Positions 28,119 to 37,387 of a stretch of DNA of 64,000 nucleotides are shown in pieces. The position numbers and the translations under genes were made by a program. This stretch comes from an uncultured Flavobacteriales bacterium (GTDB lineage Bacteria > Bacteroidota > Bacteroidia > Flavobacteriales_D > Parvicellaceae): positions 1-64,000 of the forward strand of contig CAJWDP010000003.1 in assembly GCA_913030835.1 (NCBI GenBank), in the 5' to 3' direction. The notes under the pieces were generated by a model, which made no database searches, was not told where the DNA came from, and was given only the letters and a program-made list of their open reading frames with translations. The number at the start of each line of letters is the position of its first letter. Within the stretch, counting starts at the first letter, position 1.

Positions 28119-31100
28119 CTACTTGTATTTGATCTCAAACTCTGAGCGTCTGTTCACCGCATGCTCCTCTTCGGTGCAATCCTCAGGCTTGTAACAATTG
28201 TTTACAAAATTTGTCGCGCCCATCGATTTTGTGCCAATTCGGATTGCTGCAATCCCTTTGTCCACTAGATATTCTTTTACCGCTTTACTTCTTTTCCAAG
28301 ATAAGCTTTCGTTGTACTTGTCGGGACCTCTACAATCCGTATATGATTTAATATATAGCCTTGCGTCCTTGTTTTCATTCAGCTTTACAACCAGTTTATC
28401 CAGTTGATCCTTTGAACCTTTCGTTAATGATGATTTATTGTAATCAAAATAGATTTTATCGACCGCATAACCCGCATAATCCATACTAAGATCATGATCT
28501 CTGTTCAGATCAATGTTTCCTAGACCATCTTTTGAATTCACTTGAATTGATTTTGGGTAATACCCTTCCTTTTCCAAGTTAAGTGTATACTTTTTCCCGG
28601 GTGTCATGGGAACGCTAAATCTTCCTTCGCCATCTGTGAACACAACAAGTTTCTGTTCCGTTTCATTATCAATCAACGTGACCTTCACTTTATCTAGCCC
28701 TTTTCCATCGGCTTTACTTTTTACAAACCCATCGGCGGGAACACCAGAAGGCTGAAGGTCAATATCAATGGATCTGGTCCCATCCCAATTATCGCCGGTG
28801 AAAATGTTTGCTATACCATCAAAACCATCAACCGAAGCTACTATTTGGTAATTTTCATCTTTATCCAACACAAAGTTGTACTTGCCATCAGCACCAGTAG
28901 TAAATGTTGCGATCAGATTCCCTTCGTCGTCATACAACTTAACAGTTGCTCCATTAACAGGCTTGCCGTCAGAATCATAGATCGTACCGGACACAAAAGT
29001 GGAATCGGTTAATTTGATGTCCGTTGACTTGGTCGTATCCCAATTATCGTCTGTAACAATATGTGCATTACCTTTCAAATTTCCTTTTTGAGCAACAACA
29101 TCATAGGTTTTGTCCTCTTCCAGCAGAAACTGATACCTGCCTTCATCATCGGTCCATGACTGTACCAAAACATTGCCCTGATCATCATACAAAGTGATCA
29201 TTGTATTGGAAGCCGGTGTTCCATCCTCATTCATCACCAAGCCCTGAACCGTATCAGAGGGCAAAAGCGTCATATTAACAAATTGTTCTCCATCCCAATT
29301 CTCATCAATTGCGATCTTCTTGCGTGCACCTAACCCTATTGTGCTGGCTACTAATTCATAATCACCGGGAGGAACTGAAAAAATGTAGTAGCCGTTGGAA
29401 TCGGTTTTTACTTGGCCAACCTCAACACCATTTGTGTCTAGTAACTTTACTAAAGCTCCTGCTACCGGATTGCCCAAAGAATCGGTAATTACACCTTGAA
29501 CTGTTTCGGTTGGTAATAGAGTAATATCGGTATCACCATTTGTGTCCCAACTGTCGTCAGTAACCACTTCCTGTTCTCCCTGAAAACCATCAATTCGAGC
29601 AACAATTGTATACGACTTGTTTTCATCCAGAGCAACTTGATATCGACCTTCATCATCTGTTTTGGTAATGACCATTAGCTTACGATCTGAGTCGTACAAT
29701 GCAACCTCCGCATCTTTGACCACTGAACCCGTCTCCATTCGAACAAATCCCTGCGCAGTAGGGGTCGGTTCGAGTTGCAGTTCAATCGATTGTTCACTTT
29801 GCCAGTTTTCATCCGTAACAATGTCTTTCTTTGCAGCAAATCCATTGGTGGTTGCAACCAATCGATACGTTTTATTTGTGTCAATATCAAACAGATACGT
29901 TCCATCTTCTCCCGTCCTCAGCTGTTCAATTTCCTTGCCGTTCTCATCCAATAATTTGACCAATGCATTTGCTACAGCCGAACCTTGTTGATCAACAACA
30001 ATTCCTTTAACATAAGAATCATCCAGCTTCAAACTGAACTTAAACATATCATCATCTCCGTATCCACCGTGATAACGATTTGAAACAACAAACCCTTCGT
30101 CCGGATTATCCCTGCTGATCAACAAACCGATATCATCAGCCTCTGAGTTGAGCGGTCTCGGCAGTATTTCCCGGTTTTTGGCAACCGCATCAATAACAAT
30201 CACTTTGAATAGATCCAGCTCTCCGAAGCCAATGTGACCGTTTGATGAAAAATAAAGGGTTGAATCGTTATACAAATAAGGAAAAAGTTCATCACCGGGA
30301 GAATTGACTTCCGGCCCCAGATTTACAGGCGCATCCCAGTTTCCATTTGGCAGTTTTTCAACATAGTACAGATCGGATCCTCCTTCACCACCCGGCCTGT
30401 CTGAAGAAAAATACATTTTTAGTCCGTTTTCTGTTAGTGCCGGGTGACCCGAACCATCCTCGTTATGAAGTTTCTTGATCTTTACCCTCTGCACATCGAC
30501 CAACTTCTTGTTCACCGTATCGAGCTTTCCTTTAAATAAGCGGGGATGGCTCCTTGCATCCGGATTCCATCTATTCAGCACGTCCACCTTTGTGAAATAG
30601 ATTTCCCCATTCACCTCATCAATATCAAAATCACCAATGTGAAAATGTTCGTCCTCTGCAATCAGAACAGGCTGTCCATGCATGTCCCCTGTTATAGGAA
30701 CAAAATAAAGCTCAGCCAACGGGCGCTCAGCAGAGCCGTATTCTAAAGATTCAATATCTATACTGTCGTTTCCGTAATCAATGTGGGGCCTTTTATTGTC
30801 CTCATCAAACTTCACTTCATCGCAGTACATGAAACCGTTCTTGTAGTACCTCGGACAAAATTCAGATAAACCGCTATTGATTGTCCCCAAATTGGTAAGC
30901 TCTAACCTCTCCTTTATCCCGTATTGGCTTTTTTGAAAGTCCAGTTCGCTTAAACTCAAATTATTGAAATAATCCAGGGAATCAAGCTCCTTGTATTTTA
31001 GAAACCAATCTCTAGCCTGATCAAACTTCCCGTTATTCTTTAAACAAACACCGTAATAGTGATAATTCATCGGACTGATATCCTCGACATTGACAACAAG

Positions 31101-31319
31101 AGCAAACTGCTTTTCTGCATTTAGAAAATCGTGAATACGGAAATAGCAATAGGCGAACTTGATCTGCTCCTCGTCACTCAAGCTATCTACTTTGTTGTAA
31201 TACTTGATTGCCTCTCGATATTCGAAATTGTCAAATAAATCGTTGGCTTCTTTTAATTGACCAAAGAACTGTGAGCTGTACAAGCAGATTAGAAGCAGTT
31301 GAAGAATTAGAATCCTCAT
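28119..31319 (-). CDS. PorE-like T9SS-associated protein: TPR, beta-propeller, CRD repeats, OmpA domain
   Basis: A 1066-residue periplasmic protein. In order: signal peptide (about 1-20); TPR-like helices (about 21-140); a PD40-type propeller (about 150-430, with SSDRPGGEGGSDLYYVEK and YFSSNGHIGFGELDLFKV); six carboxypeptidase-regulatory-like modules of about 84 residues (about 436-945), five sharing a D-x-x-W-D near the end; and a peptidoglycan-binding OmpA domain (about 950-1066, with YFDYNKSSLT and NRRSEFEI). PorE of P. gingivalis has the same domain set but usually one CRD. It lies 23 bases after the PorP/SprF gene, in the standard adhesin-PorP-OmpA order. It probably ties a T9SS surface complex to peptidoglycan. 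Confidence 0.82.
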   Translation of the reverse strand: MRILILQLLLICLYSSQFFGQLKEANDLFDNFEYREAIKYYNKVDSLSDEEQIKFAYCYFRIHDFLNAEKQFALVVNVEDISPMNYHYYGVCLKNNGKFDQARDWFLKYKELDSLDYFNNLSLSELDFQKSQYGIKERLELTNLGTINSGLSEFCPRYYKNGFMYCDEVKFDEDNKRPHIDYGNDSIDIESLEYGSAERPLAELYFVPITGDMHGQPVLIAEDEHFHIGDFDIDEVNGEIYFTKVDVLNRWNPDARSHPRLFKGKLDTVNKKLVDVQRVKIKKLHNEDGSGHPALTENGLKMYFSSDRPGGEGGSDLYYVEKLPNGNWDAPVNLGPEVNSPGDELFPYLYNDSTLYFSSNGHIGFGELDLFKVIVIDAVAKNREILPRPLNSEADDIGLLISRDNPDEGFVVSNRYHGGYGDDDMFKFSLKLDDSYVKGIVVDQQGSAVANALVKLLDENGKEIEQLRTGEDGTYLFDIDTNKTYRLVATTNGFAAKKDIVTDENWQSEQSIELQLEPTPTAQGFVRMETGSVVKDAEVALYDSDRKLMVITKTDDEGRYQVALDENKSYTIVARIDGFQGEQEVVTDDSWDTNGDTDITLLPTETVQGVITDSLGNPVAGALVKLLDTNGVEVGQVKTDSNGYYIFSVPPGDYELVASTIGLGARKKIAIDENWDGEQFVNMTLLPSDTVQGLVMNEDGTPASNTMITLYDDQGNVLVQSWTDDEGRYQFLLEEDKTYDVVAQKGNLKGNAHIVTDDNWDTTKSTDIKLTDSTFVSGTIYDSDGKPVNGATVKLYDDEGNLIATFTTGADGKYNFVLDKDENYQIVASVDGFDGIANIFTGDNWDGTRSIDIDLQPSGVPADGFVKSKADGKGLDKVKVTLIDNETEQKLVVFTDGEGRFSVPMTPGKKYTLNLEKEGYYPKSIQVNSKDGLGNIDLNRDHDLSMDYAGYAVDKIYFDYNKSSLTKGSKDQLDKLVVKLNENKDARLYIKSYTDCRGPDKYNESLSWKRSKAVKEYLVDKGIAAIRIGTKSMGATNFVNNCYKPEDCTEEEHAVNRRSEFEIKYK

Positions 31320-31342
31320 ATTCGTGGATGGTTATCGTTCGG

Positions 31343-32290
31343 TTAAGTTCCTTTAGAATACGAAGAATACAGTCTATTTCTCTTGTGCCATGGGGCTTTG
31401 CCCTTACCACCCTTGAACATTTTTACGCCAAGGAAAATTTCATGAGAACCAGAACTGTAATTGATAAGGTCTGAGAGTGTATAGTCGTAGGAGTAACCAA
31501 AGCTTATCGCTCCTAGATCCGCACCAATTATACTGACAAAAGCATCATTCATACGGTATGAAAACCCAATCCAATACTGATTTTTCAGAATAAACCTAGA
31601 ATTAATATCCATTTGAAATGGAGCATTCATCATATAACGAAACAATAAGGACGGTTCAATACTGAATGATTCGCTCACTTCAAAATTATAGCCACCATTT
31701 AAATAGATTGCTCTATCCAGTGTGTTGGAAACAGGCGTAGTAATATCAAATAAATCGTTCTTGCTTTCCATCAGATTAAGCCCCGAAAGCCCAACAAAAT
31801 GTCTTTCTCCGTACCAATACAATCCGAAGGTGAAGTCCGGAACCAATTCGTTACTGGTTTGGTTCATAATCGCTACATCGTTCGGTATTTCAGTTATTAA
31901 TTTATCTCGATTGAGTATGAACTGGGTAAGCTGGGCAGCCAAACCAAATGATAATTTTGATCTTGCACCGGTTTCAATATGGTAACTGTACGCTGCACTT
32001 AATCCCGTTCTTCTCGTTGGTCCTGATACGTCATTGTAGATGTTCAGACCCATCCCCATTGATTCTCCAATAAAGGTATGACCGGATAGAGTTTGGGTAA
32101 CAGGTGCATCCTTCATCCCGGCCCATTGTCGTCTAAAGCTCAAAGCAATTGGGGCATACGATTCAGAACCAGAGACAGCCGGATTTATTGCAAACTGGTT
32201 AAACATGTACTGACTGTACATGGATATTTGCTGGCTTTGCACCGCACTTGCAAAAAATAATCCAATTCCTACTATAATTAATTTTTTCAT
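31343..32290 (-). CDS. PorP/SprF family type IX secretion membrane protein
   Basis: A 315-residue outer-membrane beta-barrel with signal peptide about 1-19 (ending AVQSQ). The opening QISMYSQYMFNQFAINPAVSGS and LSFRRQWAGMKDAP are the hallmarks of PorP/SprF. SprF is needed for secretion of the type B cargo SprB, and copies of the family typically sit beside individual type B cargo genes, as here: the cargo gene lies 20 bases upstream. This copy is likely dedicated to that adhesin. Confidence 0.9.
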   Translation of the reverse strand: MKKLIIVGIGLFFASAVQSQQISMYSQYMFNQFAINPAVSGSESYAPIALSFRRQWAGMKDAPVTQTLSGHTFIGESMGMGLNIYNDVSGPTRRTGLSAAYSYHIETGARSKLSFGLAAQLTQFILNRDKLITEIPNDVAIMNQTSNELVPDFTFGLYWYGERHFVGLSGLNLMESKNDLFDITTPVSNTLDRAIYLNGGYNFEVSESFSIEPSLLFRYMMNAPFQMDINSRFILKNQYWIGFSYRMNDAFVSIIGADLGAISFGYSYDYTLSDLINYSSGSHEIFLGVKMFKGGKGKAPWHKRNRLYSSYSKGT

Positions 32291-32310
32291 ATTCTTTGAA
32301 TTAGTATTTG

Positions 32311-35300
32311 TTACCGAACAATAGTCAATGGTCCGTTCTGATCTACCGAGTCATCCAATTTTAATACATAATAATACGTTCCTGCCGGCAGGTCATTTCC
32401 GTTGTACTGACCGTCCCATTGCACAATCGGATTATTGGTTTCAAAAACCAACTTTCCCCATTTTGAATACACTTGCACACTCACTGTTCCGTATGCGCTG
32501 AAATCCAGATTCCATGTATCGTTCATACCATCTGCATTCGGAGTGAAAGAATTCGGAACCTCTACACAACCCAATTCATCCGTGATTTCAATACCGGAAA
32601 GACGCACTGTACAGTTTGTTCCATCCGAAACTACAACTGAATGCGTTCCTACAGGGGCATAGTAATATGGATTATCATATGTACCGTCGGACCAGAAATA
32701 CTGATAAAACCCTGTCCCACCGAGCGGATAGACAGTGATCGTGACACCTCCTTCAGCACAAGGTTCAGATGAAATTTCATACGTGGCAGTTAATGGATTG
32801 GTAGCCACATTAATGTTAGCGGACGTTGTATCCGAGCAGCCGTAGCTATCCGTATAGATGTAAGTGATCGCATGTGTACCAATTCCTGCACTGGTTGGAT
32901 TAAACATACCTCCGGATACACCGGGTCCGGAGTAAACACCGCCAGAAGGAAACCCATTTTCCAAATCCAGCACACTGCCATCACAAATGTCATCAAACGG
33001 AACCATGATAGCACTCACCTCAGACAAGATCACGGTGAATGAAACGCATTCTGAAGGACCACAAACACCGCCTTCTGCACGGGCATAATAGGTTGTAGTT
33101 ACCTGGGGAGAAGCCATCAGGCTATCACCTGTTCCGACTTGAATTTCACCGCAACCGTTCTCATACCAGATCCATTCTGCACCGGGGGCCAAGCTGCCTC
33201 CAATTATGTATAAGGTGAGATCCGTAGAGTCACAAATAACGGTATCTGTTGAGCTGATGCCTGTTGGGGAAATGTTATCCACTTCAACAACAAGATCCTG
33301 GCTGGCTGAATCCACACATCCATTACCGTCCGTATAGGTATAAGTTACTACATGTGTTCCTACTCCTGCTGAAGCCGGATCAAAAATACTTCCCGAAACT
33401 CCGGTTCCAGAATACACACCCCCCACCGGAAAACCTCCGGAAAGGGTAAATGCGCTAGAAGATGTTTCGCAAAGGGTATCGAACGGAACAACCAATATAG
33501 CATTCACAGAAATAATAGAAATCATAATTGACACACACTCCGTATTACCACAAGTTCCACCTTCTGCTCTGACATAATAGGTTGTCGTATTGGAAGGTAT
33601 CACAGAAATGGAGCTACCCGTACCAATTGCCGTGCCTCCACAAGAGTTTTCGTACCAGGTCCATTGAGCACCGGCCTCCAACGTTCCTCCAACAACCGAA
33701 AGTAAGGCACTATCGCCCTCGCAGAAATTATTGTTATCTGTACTAACTCCCGTAGCAGCAATGGACCCTGGAAGCACAGTTACCGTTGTCGACACACAAT
33801 TGGAAACTCCACATGTCCCAACTGCTCTTAGATAATAGGTTTCTGTTGAATTTGGCATTACATCCAAGGTATCTCCCACTCCCACCGGCACAGCACCGCA
33901 AGCTCCAGTGTACCAAACCCAAGTATATCCTCCAATCAATGGCGATGGCGAATGAGCAACCAGCTGGGTTGTGTCACCGGGGCAAATATTGTCCACCGTT
34001 ACGGTTGCAGAATCTGCTGCAGCAGCAATGTTCTCTACATCGATTGTGAGTGAAACACAGCTAGACGTATCGCAATTTCCTTCTGCACGCAGGTAGTATG
34101 TTGACGTTACCACGGGGTTTACAACAACGGAAAAACCAGATCCTAGCGGGACTAATCCACATGAGGTTCCATACCATTGCCAGTCAGCACTTGTTCCTAG
34201 CGTTCCACCTACCACACTAAGGCTAACCGCATCACCCGGACAAACCGAGCTATCATTTGCTGCAATACCGGTTGCTGCCGTAGACAAAGACTCAACCACT
34301 ACAGTTAGTGAATCACAAATGGTGTTGTTGCAAGTTCCTTCAGCTCTCGCGTAATACTTTGTAGTAATGGCCGGATTGACCGATATGGCCACTCCCGTTC
34401 CTTCTGAAACACCTCCACAACTACCTGTATACCACTGCCAATTAGCACCTGAACCCAATGACCCTCCAAGAACAGATAAGTTTACGGGCCCACCTCCCGG
34501 ACAGATTGAAGCACCGGGTGCAGCATTAATCGCAGTTGGATCCGTAGAAAGTGACTCAGTAGTTACCAATACCGGAACCACAGCACTTTCACAACCGTTG
34601 GAATGATTAGCAGTCACGTAAAATGTGGAATCACCGCTGAGTATTCCGGTAGTGAATGGCGTGCCGGTACCAATTGAAATTGTGCCTGCGGCATCCGAAT
34701 ACCAAGTATAATCCACTGCGGTTGCTTCGAAAGCCGTTAACGTAGCTGCCGTACCTGCACAGGTTGTGCCTGCAGAACCTGTTGGGACGGGTGCAGGAAG
34801 CACCGTTACATCCACTTGCAGCAAATCCGTTCTACAAAATGCTGGATTTGAATATCCAACCCAATAGGAAGTAGCTGCCGTAACCGTTGGTGTAAATGTA
34901 GCACCTGTTCCGACCGGAGGGCCTGATCCAAACGCGTTATCCCACCAATAGAAATCAGCACCACCAATGACTTGCGATGTATTCGCTGTTAACGTTGCAT
35001 TTGAACCGTTGCAAACCGCTGTTACCGATGCAGCGTCCAATGTTGGCGTTGGCACCCGCTCCCAGAAAATGGTATAACTGACGGTAAAATCATTTCCAGA
35101 TTCTGTGTATGAATTCAATACTCCCTCGGTCATTGAAGTCAATGGTCGGATGGGTGTAAATAAATTGTAGTTTTCATCATTATTTGTGCAGCCTGAAGGA
35201 TTGTATGTATCACAACCACCACAGCATCCTCCCAGCACTCCATCTTCTTCCCACCACTCTATTCTAATTTGTACTTCGTCTGCACATACTCCTTGCACAT

Positions 35301-35577
35301 CCAAAATAGTATGACTGAAATCGTAACCGCTACAAGGCTCCTCATTAAATTGAAATACCGGGGGACCCACTAGGCCACTACCTACACCACCACTTAAATA
35401 CTGGGCGGATATGTCATATCTAGGATCGGGATCAGTGAAAAAGTCTCCCCCAAAACCACAATCATAAGCATGCGTACGAAATGTTGTGGCAACGGTTATA
35501 TTTGCAAGTCTTGATTGTGCTTGAAAACAATTGAGTATTGAAAACACACCAAGAAAGCTTAAAACAAATCTGTTCAT
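32311..35577 (-). CDS. T9SS type B sorting-domain adhesin with Ig-like repeats
   Basis: A 1088-residue secreted surface protein. Signal peptide about 1-21. A cysteine-rich N-terminal domain (about 22-175) contains IRIEWWEEDG and GGCCGGC. About seven Ig-like modules follow (five with YY-x-RA-x-G near their ends). Two copies of a separate module have GGVYSG-x-GVSG and SAG-x-GTH. A gliding-motility-associated C-terminal (CHU_C) domain starts near VPNSFTPNADGMNDTW, the type B signal for T9SS export. The N-terminal domain resembles that of the edge gene at 62707. Ligand unknown; likely an adhesin. Confidence 0.87.
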   Translation of the reverse strand: MNRFVLSFLGVFSILNCFQAQSRLANITVATTFRTHAYDCGFGGDFFTDPDPRYDISAQYLSGGVGSGLVGPPVFQFNEEPCSGYDFSHTILDVQGVCADEVQIRIEWWEEDGVLGGCCGGCDTYNPSGCTNNDENYNLFTPIRPLTSMTEGVLNSYTESGNDFTVSYTIFWERVPTPTLDAASVTAVCNGSNATLTANTSQVIGGADFYWWDNAFGSGPPVGTGATFTPTVTAATSYWVGYSNPAFCRTDLLQVDVTVLPAPVPTGSAGTTCAGTAATLTAFEATAVDYTWYSDAAGTISIGTGTPFTTGILSGDSTFYVTANHSNGCESAVVPVLVTTESLSTDPTAINAAPGASICPGGGPVNLSVLGGSLGSGANWQWYTGSCGGVSEGTGVAISVNPAITTKYYARAEGTCNNTICDSLTVVVESLSTAATGIAANDSSVCPGDAVSLSVVGGTLGTSADWQWYGTSCGLVPLGSGFSVVVNPVVTSTYYLRAEGNCDTSSCVSLTIDVENIAAAADSATVTVDNICPGDTTQLVAHSPSPLIGGYTWVWYTGACGAVPVGVGDTLDVMPNSTETYYLRAVGTCGVSNCVSTTVTVLPGSIAATGVSTDNNNFCEGDSALLSVVGGTLEAGAQWTWYENSCGGTAIGTGSSISVIPSNTTTYYVRAEGGTCGNTECVSIMISIISVNAILVVPFDTLCETSSSAFTLSGGFPVGGVYSGTGVSGSIFDPASAGVGTHVVTYTYTDGNGCVDSASQDLVVEVDNISPTGISSTDTVICDSTDLTLYIIGGSLAPGAEWIWYENGCGEIQVGTGDSLMASPQVTTTYYARAEGGVCGPSECVSFTVILSEVSAIMVPFDDICDGSVLDLENGFPSGGVYSGPGVSGGMFNPTSAGIGTHAITYIYTDSYGCSDTTSANINVATNPLTATYEISSEPCAEGGVTITVYPLGGTGFYQYFWSDGTYDNPYYYAPVGTHSVVVSDGTNCTVRLSGIEITDELGCVEVPNSFTPNADGMNDTWNLDFSAYGTVSVQVYSKWGKLVFETNNPIVQWDGQYNGNDLPAGTYYYVLKLDDSVDQNGPLTIVR

Positions 35578-35761: not shown

Positions 35762-37387
35762 ATGCCAAAAGGAGTTTACATTGTTCCATTTCCTGAAAAT
35801 GAACCCGTCACACCATATGAGAATGGTTCCGTCGAAAGAGATCGACTAATCGCTAAATACAAAGAATTGTATGCACAGGAAATAGATGTTCCCATGCACA
35901 TTGGAGGTAAGGAGATACGAACCGATGACAAAGTAAAAATAGCCCCTCCTCACGAACACGCACATTCCATAGGCCAGTATAACAATGGAGATACTTCGCA
36001 TGTAGAAATGGCCATTGACGCTGCGCTTTCCGCAAAGGAGAAGTGGGCGGCATTGCCTTGGGAGCATAGAGCCAGTATTTTCTTGAGAGCAGCGGACCTT
36101 TTGGCCGGACCATTTAGAGATAAAATGAATGCCGCCACCATGCTGGCGCAATCCAAGAATGTATTTCAGGCAGAAATTGATGCGGCATGTGAAATGATCG
36201 ATTTTTTTAAGTTCAATGTGGCCTACATGCAACAGATCTATGAAGACCAACCGGGTTCCAACCCAGGTGTGTGGAATCGACTGGAATATAGACCTTTGGA
36301 AGGATTTGTTTTTTGCATTACACCTTTCAATTTCACTTCAATTTGTGCCAATTTACCTGCTGCAGCAGCAATGATGGGAAATGTCTGTGTGTGGAAACCT
36401 GCAGGATCACAAGTGTATTCAGCGCAAGTTATTATGGAACTATTCAAAGCGGCAGGACTTCCGGATGGAGTAATTAATATGATTACTGTGAGCGGACCGG
36501 ATGCTGGAGACGTTGTTTTCAATCATAAAGATTTTGCAGGTCTTCATTTTACTGGATCAACAGGAGTTTTTAGAACACTTTGGCAAACCATTGGTGCTAA
36601 TATTGCATCGTATCGTTCCTACCCTAGAATAGTAGGTGAAACGGGCGGAAAGGATTTCATCGTAGTGCACCAGTCGGCAAATCCAGCGGAAGTGGCAACC
36701 GCCATGACCAGAGGGGCATTCGAATATCAAGGACAAAAGTGTTCCGCGGCATCCAGAGCGTATATTCCCAGAAGTATCTGGGAAGCAACCAAGGCCATAG
36801 TATTGGATCAGGTGAATTCCATTAAAATGGGTTCTCCGGAAGACACCTCAAATTTTGTGAATGCGGTAATTGATGAAAAAGCGTTCGATAAAATTTCGGG
36901 TTATATTGACTATATCAAGCAGCAAGATGATGCTGAGATTATTGCAGGCGGAGGTTACGACAAGAGTTTAGGGTATTTCATTGAACCCACCATTGTGGTG
37001 ACAACAGACCCAAAATTCAAAACCATGTGCGAAGAAATATTTGGACCGGTTCTTACCGTTTATGTTTATGAGGATGCAGATTGGGAAGAAACTCTGGAGC
37101 TCGTTGATGCTACATCGGATTACGCGCTTACCGGAGCCGTTATGGCAACAGATCGATACGCCATTGACTTTGCAACGAAAAAGCTACAAAACGCGGCTGG
37201 AAATTTTTACATCAATGACAAACCTACAGGAGCCGTAGTAGGACAACAACCTTTCGGCGGTGGAAGGGGTTCAGGAACCAATGATAAAGCAGGTGCATAC
37301 CTAAACTTGCTTCGATGGGTTTCTCCGAGAACGATCAAAGAAACTTTTGTGACTCCAACGGATTATAGATATCCGTTTTTAGGATAA
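35762..37387 (+). CDS. pruA: L-glutamate gamma-semialdehyde dehydrogenase
   Basis: The second step of proline catabolism: it oxidises glutamate semialdehyde (from pyrroline-5-carboxylate) to glutamate with NAD+. At 541 residues it matches the single-domain, PutA-independent form. Evidence includes PLEGFVFCITPFNFTSI, the cofactor-binding HFTGSTGVFRTLW, the glutamate of GETGGKDFIVVH and the catalytic cysteine in YQGQKCSAASRAY. QQPFGGGRGSGTNDKAGA near the end is diagnostic for P5C dehydrogenase. A proline dehydrogenase gene is not in the window. Confidence 0.95.
   Translation: MPKGVYIVPFPENEPVTPYENGSVERDRLIAKYKELYAQEIDVPMHIGGKEIRTDDKVKIAPPHEHAHSIGQYNNGDTSHVEMAIDAALSAKEKWAALPWEHRASIFLRAADLLAGPFRDKMNAATMLAQSKNVFQAEIDAACEMIDFFKFNVAYMQQIYEDQPGSNPGVWNRLEYRPLEGFVFCITPFNFTSICANLPAAAAMMGNVCVWKPAGSQVYSAQVIMELFKAAGLPDGVINMITVSGPDAGDVVFNHKDFAGLHFTGSTGVFRTLWQTIGANIASYRSYPRIVGETGGKDFIVVHQSANPAEVATAMTRGAFEYQGQKCSAASRAYIPRSIWEATKAIVLDQVNSIKMGSPEDTSNFVNAVIDEKAFDKISGYIDYIKQQDDAEIIAGGGYDKSLGYFIEPTIVVTTDPKFKTMCEEIFGPVLTVYVYEDADWEETLELVDATSDYALTGAVMATDRYAIDFATKKLQNAAGNFYINDKPTGAVVGQQPFGGGRGSGTNDKAGAYLNLLRWVSPRTIKETFVTPTDYRYPFLG

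Follow-up and report, generated by a model that had tools for sequence, protein, structure and literature searches.

In Porphyromonas gingivalis, PorE (PG1058) forms a complex with PorP and PG1035, a type B substrate of the type IX secretion system (T9SS) (PMC9143113, PMC5053529), and anchorage to the cell wall via PorE was proposed by the authors (PMC9143113). The C-terminal domain of PorE was found bound to a peptidoglycan fragment, with the contact residues named, and the protein has a single CRD (residues 441–527) (PMC7192894); this domain has already been described as the one most variable in composition and length (PMC5053529). In Flavobacterium johnsoniae, five operons combine a type B substrate, an SprF-like shuttle and a PorE homologue, and Fjoh_3952, whose operon includes a PorE-like gene, shows static foci (PMC12618676). 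PorE homologues of this species were reported as non-lipoproteins (PMC7192894). In the excerpts of open-licence papers that underlie this comparison, no report of PorE-like anchors with several CRDs or of PorP-OmpA fusions was found. Here, a cassette of this kind, whose anchor carries six CRDs, was analysed in a 64,000-nt stretch of DNA (referred to as the window; positions 1–64,000 of contig CAJWDP010000003.1, assembly GCA_913030835.1) of an uncultured Flavobacteriales bacterium of the family Parvicellaceae.

The gene trio itself is already known from F. johnsoniae and the corresponding complex was already shown in P. gingivalis, so the main interest of the locus lies in the freedom of the spacer between propeller and OmpA domain and in a PorP-OmpA fusion encoded nearby. 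The cassette is real and conserved, and it is a clear variant of the PorE-like anchors, not an apparatus matched to its adhesin. It is probably a static surface-anchoring cassette, in which the CRD stack would serve as a tolerant, fast-evolving periplasmic tether and not as a gauge of adhesin length.

The three-gene cassette

All three genes lie on the minus strand, as do the domains described below: the substrate gene (32311–35577), the PorP/SprF gene (31343–32290) and the anchor gene (28119–31319), with intergenic gaps of 20 and 23 nt, respectively. An earlier note on this DNA, made from the sequence alone, had given the coordinates, gene order, strand and 20–23-base spacing correctly. The substrate, a putative adhesin of 1088 residues, belongs to the T9SS type B proteins (TIGR04131, residues 1006–1088 of 1088, 68.6 bits against a cut-off of 35; PF13585 (CHU_C), 74.9 against 27 bits), and its C-terminal sorting domain spans residues 1005–1088 (32314–32565). 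Hidden Markov model (HMM) matches place seven Ig_7 modules within residues 185–849 (33031–35025), and four invariant cysteines are common to the five modules that were aligned. The second gene encodes an outer-membrane barrel or shuttle of 315 residues, which belongs to the PorP/SprF family (PF11751, 269.1 against 22.3 bits; TIGR03519, 268.2 against 90.55 bits).

Substrate, shuttle and PorE homologue are therefore adjacent, which is the gene order of a static type B anchoring cassette and also that of the Fjoh_3952-3951-3950 operon type. The locus had been called a complete type B T9SS surface locus; this is appropriate for the substrate, shuttle and anchor, and too wide for the secretion machine, of which only a plug-protein gene was seen adjoining, other components not having been searched for. 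No match to a consensus Bacteroidota promoter pattern was found in the window.

Architecture of the PorE-like anchor

The anchor (1066 residues) was dissected by domain scans, self-comparison and an AlphaFold2 model. It follows the order TPR, propeller, CRD and OmpA, in which the TPR region (residues 22–135; 30915–31256) is based on helices in the model and on a TPR_2 match below its Pfam cut-off. The beta-propeller (residues 136–434; 30018–30914) is matched by PD40, and its modelled fold has structural matches among GH43/GH130 enzymes, which are five-bladed propellers (Z scores of at most 19.7). CarboxypepD_reg matches follow in six stretches (221.1 bits), and the OmpA-like peptidoglycan-binding domain (PF00691, 59.7 bits) forms the C-terminus (residues 950–1066; 28122–28472). 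When aligned to PorE (6top), Asp995, Asn1003 and Arg1010 of this domain correspond to the PorE contact residues Asp576, Asn584 and Arg591, and all 20 aligned anchors have the same residues at these positions. The earlier proposal of a PorE-like wall anchor co-encoded with its barrel and substrate is supported.

The six CRD modules begin at residues 436, 520, 606, 690, 774 and 860, are 84, 86, 84, 84, 86 and 82 residues long and share 19–46% pairwise identity; self-comparison of the anchor gives strong offsets of about 85, 169–170, 254 and 339 residues. Six CRD-like modules of about 84 residues, against one in the described PorE, had been noted earlier, and six of 82–86 residues were found, a true expansion. 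According to the self-comparison, module HMMs and a module tree, these are module 1 (29763–30014; type A), module 2 (29505–29762; even-numbered but outside the type B group in the tree), module 3 (29253–29504; type A), module 4 (29001–29252; type B), module 5 (28743–29000; type C, placed in the tree beside the third module of anchors that have four) and module 6 (28497–28742; type D, placed beside the last module of these four-module anchors).

The AlphaFold2 model (28 sequences; mean pLDDT 83.9, pTM 0.50) shows helices in the TPR region, the propeller, an all-beta run of sandwich modules and, at the end, a part that resembles OmpA. When the full-length anchor was compared with known folds, a comparison that barely probed the CRD stack itself, only single-domain matches were returned, among them OmpA/Pal domains (including PorE 6top), GH43/GH130 enzymes (to the propeller), pilins and SdrD.

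The anchor resembles PorE in its domain order and wall-contact residues, but differs from it in having six CRDs instead of one and in lacking a lipobox (simple pattern, first 45 residues), whereas PorE is a lipoprotein. Against the NCBIfam PorE model (NF052230) the anchor scores 288 bits, below the 600-bit cut-off, and it is therefore filed as PorE-like and not as PorE itself. Its top NCBIfam match is the CHU_0125 family OmpA-like protein (NF053607; 343.7 bits, under the cut-off of 620 bits), a model of 639 positions that, judged by its length, is too short for six CRDs. The three Flavobacterium loci of our set (L151, L174 and L183) differ from the window in having one CRD each.

Spacer length and the neighbouring substrate

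Recurrence of the trio is seen in 61 complete operons, which were chosen for this gene order; across them, the spacer between propeller and OmpA domain varies from 94 to 696 residues and the substrate from 223 to 3384 residues. Spacers with one CRD are 103–112 residues long (19 operons), those with two 189–204 (6 operons), with three 293–410 (10 operons; 293–295 in three of them, 399–410 in the divergent others), with four 358–364 (14 operons), with five 696 (one operon) and with six 527–534 (9 operons); two spacers without a CRD have 94 (L108) and 283 residues (L094, with PKD domains). Among 127 anchors (propeller and OmpA in one open reading frame), the HMMs count no CRD in 3, one in 73, two in 12, three in 13, four in 16, five in 1 and six in 9.

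Spacer and substrate length are weakly and negatively correlated in the 61 operons (raw Spearman -0.25, P = 0.048). In independent contrasts, calculated on a tree built from propeller, OmpA and PorP, with P values from shuffling and sign-flipping of contrasts, the correlation disappears (r = 0.01, P = 0.93, 60 tips; with log length -0.07, P = 0.59); as expected, re-rooting left the contrasts unchanged. The same holds for the clade with Ig_7 substrates, both for CRD against Ig_7 number (r = 0.15, P = 0.38) and for spacer against substrate length (r = 0.14, P = 0.41). These values supersede a first count (raw Spearman -0.56 for CRD number against substrate length in 51 operons; 0.51, P = 0.013, between the numbers of CRDs and Ig_7 modules in 23), which was repeated with more loci and phylogenetic contrasts. 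The number of CRDs is not fixed, yet it shows no detectable dependence on the neighbouring substrate once kinship is allowed for.

The earlier note had proposed a matched, elongated apparatus and had named covariation of the two repeat numbers as its test, which the contrasts given above do not support. It had also read repeats of similar length in the adhesin as a pointer to such matching; the module profiles of the two proteins do not match (hhalign probability 0.1%), and the similar repeat length looks like a coincidence. A common origin of the CRD and Ig_7 arrays was rejected on the same value.

Natural variants of the stack

The window's own genome encodes anchors with six, two, one and no detected CRD. 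In one of them (L094), PKD domains and no detected CRD lie between propeller and OmpA domain, and the adjoining substrate has 1887 residues; in another operon (L087), a 189-residue substrate (from the first start codon) stands beside an anchor of 817 residues. Since anchors of differing CRD number coexist in one cell, which has one periplasm, the width of the periplasm alone cannot set the number of modules.

In L108, a locus of a metagenome-assembled genome (MAG; Flavobacteriales SI039_bin50) that contains 15 PorP matches, no CRD was found in the anchor by HMM or Pfam, and the spacer is only 94 residues long. This spacer has 23 acidic and 4 basic residues and may be unstructured. The locus groups with the six-module genus g2 (support 0.991), and its proteins are 58% (barrel), 39% (substrate) and 45% (anchor) identical to those of the window (best BLAST segments); its adhesin, similar in size to that of the window with 1185 residues, has seven Ig_7 modules. 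The sister loci L056 and L057 both have anchors with six CRDs, yet the Ig_7 modules number ten in L056 and six in L057, and adhesins of 2870 and 2726 residues are paired with one-CRD anchors.

Three loci carry unusual open reading frames. In L169 (9551–13573), a 1341-residue anchor, in which five stretches resemble CRDs and the OmpA domain occurs twice, lies beside a 246-residue type B substrate. In the congener G038, a 66%-identical relative (L053:14229–17429), the anchor is interrupted by an in-frame TAA that falls either between CRD 5 and CRD 6 or inside one of them, reflecting either a sequencing error or decay. In the window's own genome (L087:1881–4109), a sulfate permease family protein (PF00916) with two CarboxypepD_reg stretches adjoins another type B operon.

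Evolution of the stack

Anchors with four and six modules differ by approximately 170 residues, i.e. two modules. Among 27 Ig_7-linked operons, four CRDs were found in 14, six in 9, three in 3 and none in 1, and no anchor had five. In the module tree, which was read without regard to branch support, the last (type D) and next-to-last (type C) modules of four- and six-module anchors group together, while most first and third modules form type A and most second and fourth modules type B; six modules therefore read ABABCD and four read ABCD. Exceptions to the A/B pattern are the second module of the window and the second modules of the L190–L192 anchors. Because the four-module genus g7 is nested in a six-module clade (support 0.997–1.0), the simplest reading is the loss of a module pair in this genus; g8, the second genus with four modules, has a position of low support (0.83 and 0.26). 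On the 27 tips, the minimum number of changes is 5 for the CRDs and 11 for Ig_7.

The CRDs diverge faster than the domains that flank them: between the window and its congener L107, identity is 58% in the CRDs (263/454), compared with 78% in the propeller (233/299) and 76% in the OmpA domain (89/117). It is possible, and we offer this tentatively, that the periplasmic tether of PorE-like anchors is evolvable, with two modules gained or lost at a time in the Ig_7 clade (ABCD/ABABCD), and that it may be absent, replaced by PKD domains or fused to PorP. The length of this tether would then tune the reach and compliance with which the barrel of a fixed adhesin moves over the wall, independent of the identity of the adhesin.

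A PorP-OmpA fusion near the window

Just past the end of the window, contig 3 of the same genome (G000) encodes a fusion protein of 704 residues (66110–68221; L095:8111–10222), composed of a PorP barrel (residues 20–321), weak CRD-like repeats (approximately 370–580) and an OmpA domain (600–695). Neither TPR nor propeller was found in this protein. It is encoded directly downstream of a 646-residue type B substrate, and a type B domain or substrate precedes the fusion in 5 of 5 loci checked. The fusion is matched nearly over its full length in 13 of the 39 family genomes, including that of the window, and over residues 4–658 in a fourteenth (G001). It would be a single-gene version of shuttle plus anchor and supports a topology of barrel, spacer and wall. 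Such a fusion constitutes an independent genetic argument for a type B shuttle and a wall anchor acting as one unit.

Proposed mechanism and alternative explanations

We propose the following course. The substrate would be secreted by the T9SS via its type B C-terminal domain and then handed to its own PorP/SprF barrel, which would be held to the peptidoglycan by the PorE-like protein in a physical complex. The TPR/propeller part may bind the periplasmic side of the barrel; binding of PorE to PorP is published, and the assignment to these domains is ours. The OmpA domain would bind the wall, and the CRD stack would be the tether between the two, supplying length and setting slack or reach. Its length would be loosely constrained, modules being gained or lost, and other domains, or a linker in which no domain is recognised, could take its place.

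What the CRD does was not settled in the PorE papers. Between propeller and OmpA domain, natural anchors have anything from no CRD to six, or PKD domains; it is therefore unlikely that the CRD has one specific function in all of them, and the idea of a tether can be put to the test. A rival idea is that the CRDs are specific binding modules, whose partner would be another envelope protein, a glycan or the adhesin during its transit, and whose number would give avidity. The six-module number is kept in five genera of the family, and similar sandwich modules are known to bind partners elsewhere; nevertheless, the CRDs diverge faster than propeller and OmpA domain, L108 does without them and L094 has PKD domains instead, and we regard this explanation as unlikely. 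More improbable still is that the stack acts as a stiff strut holding peptidoglycan and outer membrane at a fixed distance, although the model contains a stack of beta-sandwiches with OmpA at one end and the spacer measures 527–534 residues in all nine six-module anchors. Anchors with 6, 2, 1 and 0 detected CRDs in the same genome would have to span the same gap. Beta-sandwich modules are 3.5–4 nm long each, and six of them end to end would reach 21–24 nm. GldM, spanning most of the periplasm, measures approximately 18 nm (PMC5790014), and the longer stack would therefore lie bent or along the wall, as slack and not as a strut. Hence, of the earlier proposal that the stack is a spacer between peptidoglycan and the outer-membrane barrel, the looser form, a tether, is the best reading, and the rigid form is not.

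That the length of the CRD stack is tuned to the number of adhesin repeats seems very improbable, and as a general rule it is contradicted by the data. The window does combine six CRDs with seven Ig_7 modules, and the uncorrected correlation is positive in the Ig_7 clade, but none of the contrasts (60 operons or Ig_7 clade) retains it. In addition, L056 and L057 differ in Ig_7 number at equal CRD number, L108 has seven Ig_7 modules and no CRD, the adhesins of 2870 and 2726 residues stand with one-CRD anchors and the 246-residue substrate with the 1341-residue anchor, and Ig_7 number has changed at least 11 times compared with 5 for the CRDs.

Several observations weigh against a freely variable tether. 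The uncorrected correlation between CRD and Ig_7 number (rho 0.52, P = 0.007, n = 26) and the Ig_7-clade contrast without L108 (r = 0.28, P = 0.17) indicate that there may be a weak link between the two numbers. Retention of six modules in five genera argues for some constraint, the zero-CRD case is one MAG contig, and the relative orientation of the domains is undefined in the anchor model, as reflected by its pTM. A tolerant tether in a static anchoring cassette is still the explanation that we consider probable.

Sample of relatives and module counts

Searches covered 39 genomes of the window's family (34 stretches taken from relatives, 20 from the genome of the window), 399 genomes of its order (17 stretches taken) and named genomes (best 80 of 534 loci). 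The 61 complete operons comprise 22 of the window's family, 2 own-genome paralogues, 23 of named Bacteroidota, 13 further ones from the order and that of the window itself; the anchor set is biased towards relatives of the query. This number was reached from 78 via 63 after dropping duplicates (L107, L109 and L110, on the same contigs as the G038, G023 and G033 stretches), near-identical loci (L114 and L117, whose anchors share 660 and 633 of 694 positions with L113, unaligned), second tandem copies (L122 and L141) and operons with a substrate cut by the contig end. L059, with a split adhesin, was left out of the contrasts. The broken or split anchors of G038, G037, G001, G003 and G028 stand outside the 61, as does L087 (gene overlap above the 60-nt limit at the first start codons). 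For the G003 anchor, in-frame TGA recoding was considered and rejected: the TGAs lie within a short shifted stretch with normal reading on both sides, which indicates a frameshift.

CRDs were counted with HMMs built from the window modules and then enlarged on matches within the same set. L063 and L070 had five modules in the first pass and six with the enlarged HMMs, and their spacers equal those of other six-module anchors in length. The counts are probably too low for L103 and for divergent stacks (L161, L169 and the L200 group), with the length of the spacer serving as the check.

Neighbouring genes

On the plus strand, the cassette is adjoined by the T9SS plug-protein gene (PF17116; 26299–27630), followed by apaG. 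This neighbourhood is present in both congeners (L053 and L054) and was not seen in the other family loci compared, which include several short contigs. An aldehyde dehydrogenase gene (35762–37387, plus strand), presumably pruA, lies upstream of the substrate gene. In another family, the related operons L190 and L192 likewise have a neighbouring gene that is 70–71% identical to it, a hint that the shared position is old.

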